NCBI RefSeq assembly: GCF_000814025.1
Contig: NZ_JWLL01000006.1
Span: forward strand, 868,001 to 932,000
Origin: Tateyamaria sp. ANG-S1
GTDB taxonomy: Bacteria; Pseudomonadota; Alphaproteobacteria; Rhodobacterales; Rhodobacteraceae
Reading direction: 5' to 3'
DNA length: 64,000 nucleotides
Position 1 is the first letter of the stretch. Each line of letters starts with the position of its first letter. Below, in pieces: positions 16,776 to 24,019 of this stretch. The position numbers and the translations under genes are program-made. The notes beneath the pieces were generated by a model. That model saw only the letters and a program-made list of their open reading frames with translations, was not told the origin of the DNA and did no database searches.

Positions 16776-17687
16776 CTAGATAAGACCTTCGAGCCGCATA
16801 ACCTCCGTCCGGACCGCATGCACAAGCAACTCGGCCACACGGTTCAACCGCGCATCGCGCGTATCTGACTGGTGCCGGATCAGATAAAAGCTTCGTGAAA
16901 GCGAGAAGTCCCCGTTCAGAACACGACGCAGTCCCGGGGCAAAGGGCAGCGCAAAGTCATGGACCACGCCGACCCCACCTCCCTGTCGCAGCATGTTCAG
17001 CTGAACCGCCACCGAGTTCGAAGCAAGGGCGACGCGCGACACGCCTGCATCAGCCAGATAGTCCAACTCGCGGTCAAAGATCATGTCGGGAATGTAGCCC
17101 ACCACGCGGTGGTGGTGCAGATCGTCCAGCGCATCCAGCGGTGGCGCATCTGCAAGATAGCTCTGGCTCGCTGCAAAATGCAGGCGGTAGTCAGTGATCC
17201 GCTGCACAGTCAGTTGCCCGGCCGTCGGTGCACTGACCCCAATCGCCAGATCCGCCTCGCGCCGCGACAGGTTAAACACACGCGGCAAGGCGACGATCTG
17301 GATGTCCAAACCCGGATGCTCCCCTGCCAGCGCTGCACAGACCTGCGGCAGCACGTAGTTGGCACAGCCGTCCGGCGCACCAATGCGGACTTGCCCCGTC
17401 AGCCCTGCGTCCACCTCTGCTTGCCCTGCCCCAGCGATCCCTTCAGTGGCGGCGCGCAGTGCAACCTCTGCCGCCTCGGCCCGGTCGCGCAGACGCACCC
17501 CCGCTTCGGTCAGCGCGTAGCCTTGCGGGGACTTGCGAAAAAGAACGACATCAAGATCCCGTTCAAGCCTAGCCACCCGACGCCCGAGGGTCGCGGCATC
17601 CTTGCGCACCGCCTTGGCCGCTGCCGACAGTGTTTCGGCACGCGCCACCGCAAGAAACAGGCGCAGATCATCCCAATGCGGCGGCAT
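16776..17687 (-). CDS. LysR-family regulator divergent from mmsA
   Basis: 303 residues from the ATG at 17687 (MPPHWDDLRLFLAVARAET), preferred because GGAGGGG lies 5 bases upstream. It has an N-terminal winged helix-turn-helix (LSAAAKAVRKDAATLGRRVARLE) and a C-terminal effector domain. The gene is divergent from mmsA with a 107-base shared promoter containing nested inverted repeats, so it most likely controls the valine-catabolic genes in response to a pathway metabolite. The effector is not evident. Confidence 0.87.
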   Translation of the reverse strand: MPPHWDDLRLFLAVARAETLSAAAKAVRKDAATLGRRVARLERDLDVVLFRKSPQGYALTEAGVRLRDRAEAAEVALRAATEGIAGAGQAEVDAGLTGQVRIGAPDGCANYVLPQVCAALAGEHPGLDIQIVALPRVFNLSRREADLAIGVSAPTAGQLTVQRITDYRLHFAASQSYLADAPPLDALDDLHHHRVVGYIPDMIFDRELDYLADAGVSRVALASNSVAVQLNMLRQGGGVGVVHDFALPFAPGLRRVLNGDFSLSRSFYLIRHQSDTRDARLNRVAELLVHAVRTEVMRLEGLI

Positions 17688-17703
17688 ATAAGCCCCTCCA
17701 CCA

Positions 17704-17757
17704 TGCAAAAATGCAGAACCATTTTGCCCAACTGCATCTTTTACACGGTATTTTGCA
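17704..17757. promoter_or_regulatory. Nested inverted repeats in the lysR-mmsA intergenic region
   Basis: TGCAAAA (17704-17710) and ATGCAG (17711-17716) are mirrored by CTGCAT (17732-17737) and TTTTGCA (17751-17757). This is a plausible binding site for the divergent LysR regulator, upstream of mmsA and overlapping the promoter of the regulator itself. Confidence 0.5.
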
Positions 17758-17794
17758 AGACTATCCTACGCCCAACAGCGATCAGGAGGAACCC

Positions 17795-19294
17795 ATGCAA
17801 GAGCTTTCCCACTACATCGACGGCGCCCATGTCAGCGGCACATCAGGCCGTTTCGCCGACGTGATGAACCCCGCTACGGGCGAGGTGCAGGCCCGCGTCC
17901 CGCTCGCGTCTACAGAGGAGGTCGCCAAGGCAATCGAGATCGCAGCCAAAGCCCAACCCGCATGGGCCGCAACCAACCCGCAGCGCCGGGCGCGTGTGCT
18001 GATGAAGTTCGTGAGCCTCCTCAACCGCGACATGGACAAGCTGGCCGAGGCGCTGAGCCGCGAGCACGGCAAGACGTTGCCCGATGCCGCCGGTGACGTG
18101 CAGCGGGGCCTTGAGGTAGTGGAATACTGCATCGGCGCGCCGCATCTGTTGAAGGGTGAATATACCGACAGCGCGGGCACCGGCATCGACATGTACTCCA
18201 TGCGTCAGCCGCTGGGTGTGACGGCAGGCATCACGCCATTCAACTTCCCCGCAATGATCCCGATGTGGATGTTTGCGCCCGCAATCGCCTGCGGCAATGC
18301 CTTCATCCTCAAGCCGTCCGAACGCGACCCGTCTGTGCCCCTGATGCTCGCAGAACTTATGGAAGAAGCGGGCCTGCCCAAGGGCATCCTGCAAGTGGTG
18401 AACGGCGACAAGGAAGCGGTGGACGCCCTGCTGCACCATGACGTCGTGCAGTCCATCGGTTTTGTGGGATCCACCCCGATCGCTGAATACATCTACGCCA
18501 CAGGATGCGCGAACGGGAAGAGGGTGCAGTGCTTTGGCGGGGCCAAGAACCACATGATCGTCATGCCCGACGCAGACATGGACCAAGCGGCAGATGCGCT
18601 GGTTGGGGCGGGCTATGGTGCGGCGGGCGAGCGCTGCATGGCGATCTCGGTCGCTGTCCCTGTGGGCGACGAAACCGCCGACCGCTTGATCGAAAAACTG
18701 GTGCCCCGCATCGAAAAGCTCAAGGTTGGCCCCTACACCGCCGGCAACGACGTAGACTACGGCCCTGTGGTGACAGCGGCGGCCAAGGCCAACATCGAAC
18801 GGCTGGTGGAAACCGGCGTCGATCAGGGCGCGGAACTGGTGGTCGATGGGCGCGACTTCAAACTGCAAGGTTACGAAGACGGCTATTTCGTTGGCCCGCA
18901 CCTCTTCGACAAAGTCACAAAGGACATGGACATCTACAAGACCGAGATTTTCGGCCCTGTCCTGTCCACCGTCCGAGCGCAAACCTACGAAGAAGCCATC
19001 GGCCTCGCCATGGACCACGAATACGGCAACGGCACCGCCATTTTCACCCGTGACGGCGACACGGCACGCGATTTCGCGAACCGCATCAACATCGGCATGG
19101 TCGGGATCAACGTGCCGATCCCGGTTCCGCTCGCCTACCACACGTTCGGCGGCTGGAAAAAATCCGTGTTCGGCGATCTGAATCAACACGGTCCTGACGC
19201 ATTTAAGTTCTATACGCGCACCAAGACCGTGACGGCCCGGTGGCCGTCAGGTATTAAGGAAGGTGGAGAATTCTCGATCCCCGTTATGGAGTAA
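17795..19294 (+). CDS. mmsA: Methylmalonate-semialdehyde dehydrogenase (CoA-acylating)
   Basis: 499 residues, the family length; start ATG at 17795 with AGGAGGA upstream. The aldehyde dehydrogenase fold shows GITPFNFPAMIPMWMFAP, GSTPIAEYIYATG and the catalytic Cys in AGERCMAIS (C281). The enzyme converts methylmalonate semialdehyde to propionyl-CoA, the last step of valine catabolism after 3-hydroxyisobutyrate dehydrogenase, which is encoded downstream in the same operon. Regulation by the divergent LysR gene is likely. Confidence 0.95.
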   Translation: MQELSHYIDGAHVSGTSGRFADVMNPATGEVQARVPLASTEEVAKAIEIAAKAQPAWAATNPQRRARVLMKFVSLLNRDMDKLAEALSREHGKTLPDAAGDVQRGLEVVEYCIGAPHLLKGEYTDSAGTGIDMYSMRQPLGVTAGITPFNFPAMIPMWMFAPAIACGNAFILKPSERDPSVPLMLAELMEEAGLPKGILQVVNGDKEAVDALLHHDVVQSIGFVGSTPIAEYIYATGCANGKRVQCFGGAKNHMIVMPDADMDQAADALVGAGYGAAGERCMAISVAVPVGDETADRLIEKLVPRIEKLKVGPYTAGNDVDYGPVVTAAAKANIERLVETGVDQGAELVVDGRDFKLQGYEDGYFVGPHLFDKVTKDMDIYKTEIFGPVLSTVRAQTYEEAIGLAMDHEYGNGTAIFTRDGDTARDFANRINIGMVGINVPIPVPLAYHTFGGWKKSVFGDLNQHGPDAFKFYTRTKTVTARWPSGIKEGGEFSIPVME

Positions 19295-19295
19295 A

Positions 19296-19733
19296 ATGCC
19301 AGTACAGTTCCGTATCCTGCCGAACCGCGGCCTCGTCGTGGTTCGGTACACCGGCCATGTGGCCATCGAAGACACGATGCGCGCCACGCGCGCCTATGTC
19401 AGCCATCCGCACTACGCCCCCGGCCAGAAGCAGTTGGTCGATTTCAGTGGCGTGACCAGCTACGAAAAGGACTATGTCCGCTTCATGCAGATGCAGGCCC
19501 AAAAGGCCGGGCGCTTTTCCAGCTCACGTATGCAATCGCTTGTTGTCTACATCGCGCCCAGCCCGATCAGCCAGGAATTGGCGTCGCTGTTCTTCAAGTC
19601 GTGGAATGATGTGCACGCCGTTGTTCCCATTGTTCAAGACTGCGAGATCGAGGCCCTGACCCTGCTGGGCGAGGCGGACGAGACGGTGGATACGTTGCTG
19701 ACGCCCGCGGCCGGGCGACAGGCCTTGCAATAG
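19296..19733 (+). CDS. STAS/SpoIIAA-like protein in the valine operon
   Basis: 145 residues, starting one base after the mmsA stop. The pattern ILPNRGLVVVRYTGHVAIED, HPHYAPGQKQLVDFSGV and a C-terminal SLFFKSWNDVHAVVPIVQ resembles the STAS/SpoIIAA-like alpha-beta fold found in many uncharacterised Rhodobacteraceae proteins; no catalytic motif is visible. It lies between mmsA and the acyl-CoA dehydrogenase gene, so it may have a structural or regulatory role in the pathway, but this is inferred only from position. Confidence 0.75.
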   Translation: MPVQFRILPNRGLVVVRYTGHVAIEDTMRATRAYVSHPHYAPGQKQLVDFSGVTSYEKDYVRFMQMQAQKAGRFSSSRMQSLVVYIAPSPISQELASLFFKSWNDVHAVVPIVQDCEIEALTLLGEADETVDTLLTPAAGRQALQ

Positions 19734-19794: not shown

Positions 19795-20937
19795 ATGGAT
19801 TTCGCACTGACCGAGGAACAAACGGCAATTTTTGACATGGCCTACGCTTTTGGTCAGTCGGAAATTGCCCCTCATGCGCGCGACTGGGAAGCGGCAGGCA
19901 CGATCCCCAAGGATCTGTGGCCCAAGGTTGGTGAACTGGGCTTTGCATCCCTCTATGTCTCCGAAGATGCAGGCGGCGCGGATTTGTCGCGGCTCGACGC
20001 CACGCTGGTGTTCGAGGCTCTGTCGATGGCCTGCCCCTCTGTCGCCGCGTTCCTGTCGATTCATAACATGTGCGCCAAGATGCTCGACAGCTTTGCAGAT
20101 GACGACCTCAAGGCGCGTGTGATGCCGGACGTACTGAGCATGAACACCGTGCTCAGCTACTGCCTGACCGAACCCGGGAGCGGCTCCGACGCCGCCGCCC
20201 TGCGCACCCGTGCGGAGCGCACGAACGAGGGCTATGTGCTTAACGGAACCAAGGCGTTCATCTCAGGCGGCGGCTATTCCGATGCGTATGTCTGTATGGT
20301 CCGCACGGGCGAAGACGGACCAAAAGGCGTCTCCACCGTCTATGTTGAAGACGGCACCGAAGGGCTGTCCTTTGGCGGGCTTGAGGACAAGATGGGTTGG
20401 AAAAGCCAGCCCACGGCCCAAGTCCAATTCGACAATTGCAACATTCCCAGCGGCAATCTGGTGGGCGAAGAGGGCTCTGGTTTCAAATATGCGATGATGG
20501 GCTTGGATGGGGGCCGCCTGAACATTGCCGCCTGTTCACTTGGTGCGGCGCAGACAGCCATCAACACGACGCTAGCCTATATGGGCGAGCGCAAAGCCTT
20601 CGGTCAGTCCATAGACCAATTCCAGGGCCTGCAATTCCGCCTCGCGGATATGGAGATCGAGTTGCAAGCCGCCCGCACCTTCCTCCGCCAGGCGGCTTGG
20701 AAACTGGACAATGACGCGCCTGATGCGACGAAGTTCTGTGCCATGGCAAAGAAATTCGTGACCGAGGCCGGATCCAAGGTCGTTGACCAATGCCTGCAAC
20801 TGCACGGCGGGTATGGCTATCTGGCCGACTATGGCATCGAAAAACTGGTGCGCGACTTGCGTGTCCACCAGATCCTTGAGGGTACAAACGAAATCATGCG
20901 GGTCATCGTGGCGCGCGATATGCTGAAGAACCGATGA
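19795..20937 (+). CDS. Acyl-CoA dehydrogenase, probable isobutyryl-CoA dehydrogenase
   Basis: 380 residues, an FAD-dependent acyl-CoA dehydrogenase with YCLTEPGSGSDAAALRT (flavin and substrate contact), GERKAFGQSIDQFQG and the C-terminal QLHGGYGYLADYGIEKLVRD followed by QILEGTNEIMR. In this operon, between mmsA and the 3-hydroxyisobutyryl-CoA hydrolase, the natural substrate is isobutyryl-CoA, giving methacrylyl-CoA. The start has GGGAGGG upstream. Its stop overlaps the next start by four bases (ATGA). The enoyl-CoA hydratase for the following step is not encoded here. Confidence 0.9.
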   Translation: MDFALTEEQTAIFDMAYAFGQSEIAPHARDWEAAGTIPKDLWPKVGELGFASLYVSEDAGGADLSRLDATLVFEALSMACPSVAAFLSIHNMCAKMLDSFADDDLKARVMPDVLSMNTVLSYCLTEPGSGSDAAALRTRAERTNEGYVLNGTKAFISGGGYSDAYVCMVRTGEDGPKGVSTVYVEDGTEGLSFGGLEDKMGWKSQPTAQVQFDNCNIPSGNLVGEEGSGFKYAMMGLDGGRLNIAACSLGAAQTAINTTLAYMGERKAFGQSIDQFQGLQFRLADMEIELQAARTFLRQAAWKLDNDAPDATKFCAMAKKFVTEAGSKVVDQCLQLHGGYGYLADYGIEKLVRDLRVHQILEGTNEIMRVIVARDMLKNR

Positions 20938-22847
20938 CCGGCATCTCAATCCGTATCACTGGCCAAGCAGGCCGGATCACATTGCAGCGCCCGCAGGCGC
21001 TCAACGCCATGACCTATGAGATGTGCCTCGCTATCGAAGCGGCACTCGACACATGGCGCGACGACGACGGGATCGCGGTCGTGATACTCGATGCAGAAGG
21101 CGACCGCGCCTTCTGTTCGGGCGGGGACATCGCCGAACTCTACGCAACAGGCACCAAGGGCGACTACGCCTACGGCCAGAAGTTCTGGGCCGACGAATAC
21201 CGCCTCAACCACAAGATCTTTCACTACACCAAACCTGTCATCAGCTTCCTACAGGGCTTCACAATGGGCGGCGGCGTCGGCATCGGCTGCCACGGCTCGC
21301 ACCGGGTCGTGGGCGACAGCAGCCAGATCGCCATGCCTGAATGCGGCATCGGCCTTATCCCCGACGTCGGCGGCTCGCTGATGCTGGCCCTCGCCCCCGG
21401 ACGCTTGGGCGAATACCTCGGCACCACGGCGGCGCGCATGAACGCCTCCGACGCGATATTTGCCGGGTTTGCCGATCACTACATTCCCGAAGCGCAGTGG
21501 CCCAACCTGATCGCCACGCTCGAAGCAATGGGCAACACCGACTGCATTGTCGAGGCGGCCACCACCCCTGCCCCCGGCCCTTTGCAAGAGGCGATGCCGG
21601 ACATCGACAGACACTTTCACGGCGTGTCCCTCGGCGACGTCTTCACAACGCTCAAAGGCGAAGACAGCGACTTCGCTCGCGACACGCTCAAACGCATGGA
21701 CCGCAACAGCCCGCTCGCCATGGCCTGCACGATCGAGGCGCTGAACCGCCTGCGCGGCCCCTCCCTCACGCTGGAAAAGGCGCTCGACCTCGAATACCGC
21801 TTTACCGCGCGCGCGATGGAGCATGGCGACTTTCTGGAAGGGATCCGGGCCGCCATCATCGACAAGGACCGCAATCCGCAATGGCAATACGCCGACGGGT
21901 CGGTCCCGCCCATGGCCGTCAGCAAGATGCTGATGCCACTGGGCAAAATGGCGCTTGAACTGGGAGGAACAGGCATGAAGATCGGATTTATCGGGCTGGG
22001 CAATATGGGTGCGCCCATGGCCGAAAACCTCGCCAAGGCGGGACATGAGGTGACGGGCTTTGACGTCGCTGGCACCTCTGCCGAAGGGGTCGCAGATGCG
22101 GACAGTGCGGCCGAGGCGGCGGCGGACAAGGACATCGTCATCACCATGCTACCTAACGGTGACATCCTGCGCGCCGTGGCAAATGACGTAGTCCCGGCGA
22201 TGAAAGCGGGTGCAACCCTCATCGACTGCTCAACCGTCGATGTCGAAAGCGCCCGCGCCGTGGCGGCGCAGGCTGACGGGTCTGGCTTGGGCTGCGTTGA
22301 CGCGCCTGTCTCAGGCGGGATCGGCGGCGCAGCGGGCGGCACGCTCACATTCATGGCAGGCGGCACCGATGCGGCCTTCAGCGCCGCCAAACCGCTCTTC
22401 GACATCATGGGCCAAAAGGCCGTGCATTGCGGCGACGCTGGCGCCGGTCAGGCGGCCAAGATCTGCAACAACATGATCCTCGGCGCCACAATGATCGCCA
22501 CCTGCGAAGCCTTCGCTCTCGCTGACAAACTCGGGCTAGACCGGCAAAAAATGTTCGACGTGGTCAGCACATCCTCGGGCTATTCATGGACAATGAACGC
22601 CTACTGCCCTGCCCCCGGCGTCGGCCCGCAAAGCCCTGCCGACAACAACTACCAGCCGGGCTTCGCCGCGGAACTCATGCTCAAGGACCTCGGGCTCAGC
22701 CAGCAAGCGGCAGAGGCGGTGAACGCTGACACACCGATGGGCCAGCGCGCGCTCGAACTCTACCGCCAGTTCGTCGAGGAGGAAGGCGGAAAAGGCAGGG
22801 ATTTCAGCGCCATGCTGCCCCGCTTCTCCGCCCGTGGACGCAATTGA
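20934..22847 (+). CDS. Fused 3-hydroxyisobutyryl-CoA hydrolase / 3-hydroxyisobutyrate dehydrogenase
   Basis: 637 residues in a single uninterrupted frame. Residues 1-347 are a 3-hydroxyisobutyryl-CoA hydrolase of the crotonase family, with TMGGGVGIGCHGSHRVV and MPECGIGLIPDVGGS (E136). Residues 348-637 are a complete 3-hydroxyisobutyrate dehydrogenase (mmsB type), with the GFIGLGNMGAPMAENLAKAG nucleotide loop, DAPVSGG and the catalytic Lys509 in GQAAKICNN. These enzymes catalyse consecutive steps of valine breakdown. They are normally separate neighbours. Here the junction reads ALELGGTGMKIGF without a stop, while an internal GGAGGA sits 6 bases before Met348, so both a fused and a free dehydrogenase could be made. 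Confidence 0.9.
   Translation: MTGISIRITGQAGRITLQRPQALNAMTYEMCLAIEAALDTWRDDDGIAVVILDAEGDRAFCSGGDIAELYATGTKGDYAYGQKFWADEYRLNHKIFHYTKPVISFLQGFTMGGGVGIGCHGSHRVVGDSSQIAMPECGIGLIPDVGGSLMLALAPGRLGEYLGTTAARMNASDAIFAGFADHYIPEAQWPNLIATLEAMGNTDCIVEAATTPAPGPLQEAMPDIDRHFHGVSLGDVFTTLKGEDSDFARDTLKRMDRNSPLAMACTIEALNRLRGPSLTLEKALDLEYRFTARAMEHGDFLEGIRAAIIDKDRNPQWQYADGSVPPMAVSKMLMPLGKMALELGGTGMKIGFIGLGNMGAPMAENLAKAGHEVTGFDVAGTSAEGVADADSAAEAAADKDIVITMLPNGDILRAVANDVVPAMKAGATLIDCSTVDVESARAVAAQADGSGLGCVDAPVSGGIGGAAGGTLTFMAGGTDAAFSAAKPLFDIMGQKAVHCGDAGAGQAAKICNNMILGATMIATCEAFALADKLGLDRQKMFDVVSTSSGYSWTMNAYCPAPGVGPQSPADNNYQPGFAAELMLKDLGLSQQAAEAVNADTPMGQRALELYRQFVEEEGGKGRDFSAMLPRFSARGRN
21963..21977 (+). promoter_or_regulatory. 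Internal ribosome site and start for the mmsB part
   Basis: GGAGGA at 21963-21968 lies 6 bases before the in-frame ATG at 21975, exactly where stand-alone mmsB would begin. It looks like a relic of the two-gene arrangement, or a working internal start. Confidence 0.6.
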
Positions 22848-23233: not shown

Positions 23234-23947
23234 TCAGGTGTCCGGCAGGCTCACGTCCCCGCCCGAACTTATGGACACATCCGCATCCACCGGCGCGCCT
23301 TCGACATCAATGTCACCGCCACTCGATGCACGCGCGCGCAGCGTGCCGGTGATGTAGAGATCAATTTCCGACCCGCTGGACGCTTCGGCTTTCGCGTCCT
23401 TGCACTTCAGGTTTTCTGCATCAATGGACGAACCGCTAGAGGCTTCAGCCACAAGCGTGGTGCAGGTGCCACGTACATCCAGATCAGATCCAGAACTGGA
23501 CCGGAGCATCACGCTCTCCACCTCAAGCCCATTCACATCAACATCGGCGCCACTGCTGGCTTTTGCATCAAAGGAACTGATGCCGGGAAAAGTGCCCGTC
23601 ACCTCGACATTCACCCCGCTGCTTGCTGTGATCGACGTCAACGCCGGCATGGACACCGTCACCTCGTAACGGTCCGCCATGCCCATCAGGATCATGGACG
23701 AGTCACCCGTGCGCCAGATCTTAAGCGTGTCGCCATCCTGCTCCACGTGCAAGTGTCGCGCACGCGCTGTGCCCGACACATCGGAAACAACCCGGAACGC
23801 CTCTCCGGAATAGACATTAACCTTCACATGATTGGATGCGTCAATTTTTGAAAACCCGGACAGGTCATGCACAATTTCGCGCGCCGCCAAGGGGGACGCC
23901 AACAGCGCAGCGCTCAAGACCGACACCGTATAGCAAGGTCTCATCAT
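23234..23947 (-). CDS. Exported GIN-domain (DUF2807) protein
   Basis: About 237 residues, with a signal peptide ending PLAAREIV. The mature part is a GIN-type (putative auto-transporter adhesin head) beta-helix: seven strands each contain an S-S-G turn, such as TASSGVNVEV, KASSGADVDV, RSSSGSDLDV, EASSGSSIDA, EASSGSEIDL, RASSGGDIDV and SISSGGDVSL. The family is of unknown function, often periplasmic or surface-exposed. The ATG at 23947 has GGGAGGG 5 bases upstream; an in-frame GTG at 23953 is a weaker start. Confidence 0.82.
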   Translation of the reverse strand: MMRPCYTVSVLSAALLASPLAAREIVHDLSGFSKIDASNHVKVNVYSGEAFRVVSDVSGTARARHLHVEQDGDTLKIWRTGDSSMILMGMADRYEVTVSMPALTSITASSGVNVEVTGTFPGISSFDAKASSGADVDVNGLEVESVMLRSSSGSDLDVRGTCTTLVAEASSGSSIDAENLKCKDAKAEASSGSEIDLYITGTLRARASSGGDIDVEGAPVDADVSISSGGDVSLPDT

Positions 23948-24019
23948 CTTCACCCTCCCAACAAGATTGTAGGGGTGAGATGGCGATCCCGCGATTTACG
24001 TTCAACGCGATGCGCGGAA

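Follow-up and report, generated by a model that had tools for sequence, protein, structure and literature searches.

The available portions of the literature describe several systems that resemble the locus presented here. Consecutive pathway enzymes have been fused several times independently in the case of G6PD-6PGL (PMC3148214), and internal in-frame starts giving rise to a C-terminal product have been described for Rpn proteins (PMC10327210) and Cas11b (PMC11899642). Gene pairs with -4 or -1 overlaps have been reported to be coupled in their translation (PMC10666635). Regarding the genes of valine catabolism, Ruegeria pomeroyi SPO_2211-2213 display the same gene order as the locus studied here, as separate genes (PMC3305630). 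In other Rhodobacteraceae valine operons, split genes for 3-hydroxyisobutyryl-CoA hydrolase (HIBCH, annotated as enoyl-CoA hydratase/isomerase family) and 3-hydroxyisobutyrate dehydrogenase (HIBADH, mmsB) follow an acyl-CoA dehydrogenase gene in the same order, as on plasmid pSC52_1, where the two genes overlap by 4 nt.

The window analysed here, 64,000 nucleotides of Tateyamaria sp. ANG-S1 (contig NZ_JWLL01000006.1, positions 868,001 to 932,000 of the forward strand), carries a frame that runs through this junction instead, with none of the stops that separate HIBCH and HIBADH in other split relatives. Each of the described systems shares part of its character. The G6PD-6PGL fusions are eukaryotic, whereas the present locus switches between fused and split states among closely related bacteria and retains an internal start. 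As in Rpn and Cas11b, a C-terminal product would arise from an internal in-frame start, although the product would here be a complete metabolic enzyme which is encoded by a separate gene in relatives. In coupled gene pairs very short distances likewise tie two syntheses together, and the split relatives of this locus often show the -4 overlap or very short gaps; however, a fusion yields a covalent product, and its second product needs internal initiation in place of reinitiation. Among the papers listed in searches covering few subscription journals, none describes an HIBCH-HIBADH fusion in its title or the beginning of its abstract. The main text of a Roseobacter litoralis proteome paper held no match to hydroxyisobutyrate or enoyl-CoA and lists mmsA, and an Epibacterium paper names a 3-hydroxyisobutyrate dehydrogenase. 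As far as these sources extend, enzyme fusions and internal starts are known in kind, and what is new is the fusion of these two enzymes, the retention of the start and the recurrent switching.

The Fused Gene and Its Surroundings

The features of the locus on which the comparisons rely are the following.

17630..19294, + strand: methylmalonate-semialdehyde dehydrogenase ORF (mmsA type); TIGR01722 at 659.2 bits against a cut-off of 448.5, residues 60-538
19795..20937, + strand: acyl-CoA dehydrogenase gene; ATGA overlap with the fused ORF
20934..22847, + strand: fused ORF, HIBCH - linker - HIBADH; 637 aa, stop-free in 20/20 genomes of the genus
20934..21956, + strand: 3-hydroxyisobutyryl-CoA hydrolase domain, residues 1-341; NF004127
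21957..21974, + strand: linker codons 342-347 (ELGGTG); junction comparison, pLDDT 76 for block 341-350
21962..21968, + strand: internal Shine-Dalgarno site, GGGAGGA, with a 7-nt spacing between the GGAGG core and ATG348
21975..21977, + strand: internal ATG (Met348), probable start of free HIBADH; comparison of the genus and of fused loci
21975..22844, + strand: 3-hydroxyisobutyrate dehydrogenase domain, residues 348-637; TIGR01692

The fused gene is a single reading frame of 637 codons closed by TGA, and both of its halves pass their NCBIfam cut-offs: NF004127 (3-hydroxyisobutyryl-CoA hydrolase) matches residues 4-336 with 370.6 bits against 274, and TIGR01692 (3-hydroxyisobutyrate dehydrogenase) matches residues 352-628 with 363.7 bits against 291.6, with Pfam assignments in agreement for both. 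The in-frame fusion of consecutive valine-catabolic enzymes proposed in a preliminary description of this DNA therefore stands, and the internal GGAGGA (21963-21968) and the Met348 codon are present as it had them. Only one full-length match to the fused protein occurs in its own genome. Across 63 fused proteins, no variation was detected at G112-G114, E136 and D144 of the HIBCH half, which we take to be the oxyanion glycines and the catalytic Glu and Asp, nor at K509, N513, G354, G356 and G359 of the HIBADH half, presumably the catalytic Lys and Asn and the GxGxxG NAD site.

Two of the genes upstream fit the same pathway. The mmsA-type ORF, upstream of the fused gene, corresponds to the next pathway step, and its true start is likely the ATG at about 17795, as judged by eye. 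The gene at 19795..20937 matches models of acyl-CoA dehydrogenase or reductase best in NCBIfam, with all 22 scoring under their cut-offs. Together with enoyl-CoA hydratase, these enzymes make up the standard route of valine breakdown. Between the mmsA and acyl-CoA dehydrogenase genes lies an ORF of 156 aa (19263-19733, + strand) which overlaps the end of mmsA and has no NCBIfam match. A LysR-type regulator (16776-17708, - strand), under the cut-off in all 25 best of 36 families, is divergent from the mmsA operon and possibly regulates valine catabolism. Downstream, a protein encoded at 23234-23953 (- strand) gives a weak LiaG-family match, with 36.3 bits against a cut-off of 285.

An AlphaFold model of the fused protein consists of two well-folded domains (pLDDT 90.3) with a pTM of 0.60, a value giving no confident mutual orientation of the domains and thus no support for a fixed channel between them. 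Each of the PDB matches listed covers one half, and none of the 50 listed chains spans both. These data bear on the possibility that the fusion was selected for direct passage of 3-hydroxyisobutyrate from one active site to the other. The two enzymes catalyse consecutive steps, and the presumed catalytic residues show no variation in either half; nonetheless, the linker is short, varies between loci and is modelled with lower confidence, the modelled domains have no fixed arrangement and fission is frequent in close relatives, so that substrate channelling appears very unlikely as the reason for the fusion.

Distribution of the Fusion

All 20 genomes examined of the genus Tateyamaria, the window's own included, share the stop-free frame over residues 1-636 or 1-637, with the other 19 proteins being 77-93% identical to that of the window, and the Roseobacter genus g266 is likewise fused in 19/19 genomes, so that in both genera the open frame extends across species divergence. 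Since 20/20 genomes of the genus have it, an error of sequencing or assembly that conceals a stop near 21960 has been ruled out, its probability being negligible. In a sample of the family comprising 394 genomes, about one per genus, at least 45 were fused, 43 of these in other genera, and one further genome was fused up to the end of its contig. Fused organisms include Sulfitobacter brevis, Roseobacter sp. H9, Thalassovita taeanensis, Marivita hallyeonensis, Pelagimonas varians, Thetidibacter halocola, Thalassococcus profundi, Tropicibacter naphthalenivorans and Maliponia aquimaris, and the type strain Roseobacter litoralis OCh149 (locus L299, genome G1421) also appears to be fused. Loci of Ruegeria, Shimia and Roseovarius that contain the two halves have them as split genes. 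The preliminary description had seen in the internal site a sign of recent loss of the stop codon, and here it does not hold: the fusion is found throughout the genus, where protein identity falls to 77%, and in many other genera, which also means that the internal site is more than a remnant. Two of its other points, the fusion itself and the kept internal start, agree with the present data.

Among 148 junctions that were typed, 63 were fused, 43 were in frame with a stop, 40 were out of frame, one was open at its contig end and one held HIBADH only; these proportions are not those of the family, because the set is the top of a ranking favouring in-frame pairs. In the split relatives the stop or overlap falls in or near the stretch that matches the linker (21957..21974).

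Outside the family, no stop-free full-length match was present among the matches listed for a class sample of 385 genomes (E up to 1e-60) or for a phylum sample of 398 genomes (E up to 1e-100); in these samples, as in that of the family, the best three first-look candidates per genome were scored. HIBCH and HIBADH shared one open frame in none of 20 fetched half-match rows, 18 of them from outside the family, which had been picked by eye mostly for long open frames. One locus outside the family (L318, genome G955) has 423 open codons upstream of HIBADH without an HIBCH match, either a chance open frame or another fusion partner. On Rhizobium leguminosarum plasmid NC_011370.1 (H9), a pair annotated as separate genes is 57.6% identical over both halves, an identity above that of the other rhizobial records among the best 20 of 313 matches, and transfer from a Rhodobacteraceae relative is possible.

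Conservation of the Internal HIBADH Start

An ATG, GTG or TTG is found at the HIBADH start, or up to 12 nt upstream of it, in 92 of 93 distinct fused loci. The start codons consist of 90 ATG, one GTG, one TTG and one ATT, the last in locus L014, where a TTG at -15 was counted as no standard start and the Shine-Dalgarno (SD) energy was kept among the 93. Within the window's genus the Met348 position is ATG in 19/20 genomes and ATT in one. Pairing with the anti-Shine-Dalgarno sequence at fused junctions has a median of -9.3 kcal/mol over the 93 loci and is at or below -6 in 81/93 junctions, compared with 215/2135 other in-frame ATGs of the same genes. In 67/91 loci the spacing between the SD core and the start is 7 nt. 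Local folding energy is nearly identical at 92 fused starts (-5.1) and 150 split starts (-5.2), as opposed to -11.8 at 764 of the control ATGs. When SD strength is compared between fused and split loci, the fused are weaker, with means of -8.6 vs -9.1 and medians of -8.4 vs -10.2 (p 0.046, although p-values overstate independence because the loci are related by descent).

Real linkers pair better than their synonymous re-encodings (mean -8.6 vs -5.2). On the opposing side, the share of random synonymous encodings that pair as strongly is under 5% in only 15/93 loci and above one half in 7/93. In the window's genus, GGA is used at 32 of 33 Gly codons of positions 344 and 345, while it constitutes 12.2% of Gly codons overall, and at Gly347, beside the SD glycines, all four Gly codons are used. 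Low synonymous variation is not unique to the junction, with the stretch 344-352 ranking 4th of 624.

The internal site has also been retained while the surrounding linker changes. In Roseobacter g266 the start lies three codons upstream and the SD is upstream along with it; the start column there comprises 18 Met and one Val (GTG), and columns -2, -1, +1, +2 and +3 vary widely. Among nine relatives checked from beyond the family, most carry a Met one codon earlier, and the aligned place is Ala in 8/9 and Thr in the ninth, which indicates that the Met is not needed by the fold. Start codon and SD are thus kept beyond the needs of the protein, loci L014 and L195 being the exceptions. These comparisons of start codon, SD and local structure make production of both forms, as raised in the preliminary description, plausible.

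The two exceptional loci are of different kinds. L014 (genome G001, of the window's genus) has ATT in place of ATG with an intact SD site and is a candidate for a natural fusion-only or weakly initiating state. L195, from uncultured Marivita sp. S4E-24, is fused and has kept the ATG, with no recognisable SD site at the junction. With one lacking a standard start and the other an SD, at least two of the fused genes may yield little free HIBADH or none at all.

An SD motif within a coding sequence can also make ribosomes pause instead of initiating. The gene might encode a fully committed bifunctional enzyme, made as the long chain only, with the junction SD and Met being leftovers or serving as a translational pause between the domains. 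Such commitment would suit the two exceptional loci and the finding that every genome examined of two genera is fused. It would also suit the lack of stops among about 98 linker substitutions in these two uniformly fused genera, where 5.5 would be expected if stops were neutral; as only 2.05 of these are expected in the spacer codons outside the SD, the missing stops are weak evidence for selection of the fused state itself. An exclusively long product nevertheless accords poorly with a start codon, SD spacing and low structure that match the true starts of split relatives, with an SD strength that nearly does, with the joint position of start and SD where the start lies upstream, and with the use, besides ATG, of just GTG and TTG plus one ATT. 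We regard a fully committed enzyme as unlikely.

Repeated Fusion and Fission

At least 18 changes between the fused and split states are required on a FastTree phylogeny of 218 loci and at least 19 on an IQ-TREE phylogeny of 204 rows, the latter dropping to 10 once all branches below 95 are collapsed; part of the inner branching is weak, and exchange of the gene among species would mimic switching in these counts. With the root fixed as split, a model of reversible change performs better than one allowing gain only (lnL -75.4 vs -87.8); its fitted rate of loss, 0.67, exceeds that of gain, 0.36, and a reconstruction that places changes late yields 13 gains and 6 losses. In Sulfitobacter (g56), for which 62 genomes were searched, the 29 tree rows comprise 6 fused rows, 12 with a stop between in-frame halves and 11 whose halves are out of frame, and at least 5 changes are needed. 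As judged from these trees, fusion and fission have recurred.

Frequent switching may also be read as neutral, with the stop being lost and regained at random, free HIBADH still being made and the HIBCH tail being harmless. This account shares the two-product mechanism with the explanation preferred below and differs from it on whether the fusion matters. The 19 or more state changes, and the five or more among the 29 rows of a single genus, are what it would lead one to expect, as is a loss rate exceeding that of gain. The states are strongly clustered, however, with 19 changes against about 60 when labels are shuffled (100 shuffles), and in two genera every genome examined carries the fusion. 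Neutral switching is a real but minority possibility.

A Proposed Two-Product Gene

The explanation that we favour, with a probability of roughly 0.7, is that of a housekeeping valine-catabolic operon in which HIBCH and HIBADH have become one frame and the old HIBADH start is still active, so that two products would be made. Ribosomes starting at the HIBCH start would produce a two-enzyme chain of about 67 kDa, and those entering at the internal GGGAGGA-ATG (Met348) would produce free HIBADH; it is from the conservation of this site that we infer production of both proteins. The free enzyme would allow mixed oligomers to form, relieving the crowding that may arise when the dehydrogenase oligomerises. 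The fusion itself would serve mainly to link the two syntheses tightly, as one more variant of the short overlaps that split relatives show, and substrate channelling would be a possible bonus. We lean slightly towards the more specific proposal that selection maintains the cistron as a gene with two products, where the ratio of bifunctional chain to free HIBADH would be set by the internal ribosome site, and where fusion, -4 overlap and short in-frame spacing would be interchangeable ways of tying both syntheses together.

Gene fusions are usually taken to commit two functions irreversibly to one bifunctional enzyme and to show that the proteins concerned work together. Annotation of this gene as one protein of 637 aa may conceal a second product. 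Since fused, in-frame-split and overlapping versions occur in many close bacteria along with an intact internal start, the benefit of the fusion, whether channelling, coupled synthesis or nothing, is directly testable in this family, apparently including the culturable type strain of Roseobacter litoralis. If the two-product reading is true, the switches between close relatives would constitute a natural repeated experiment on why genes fuse.
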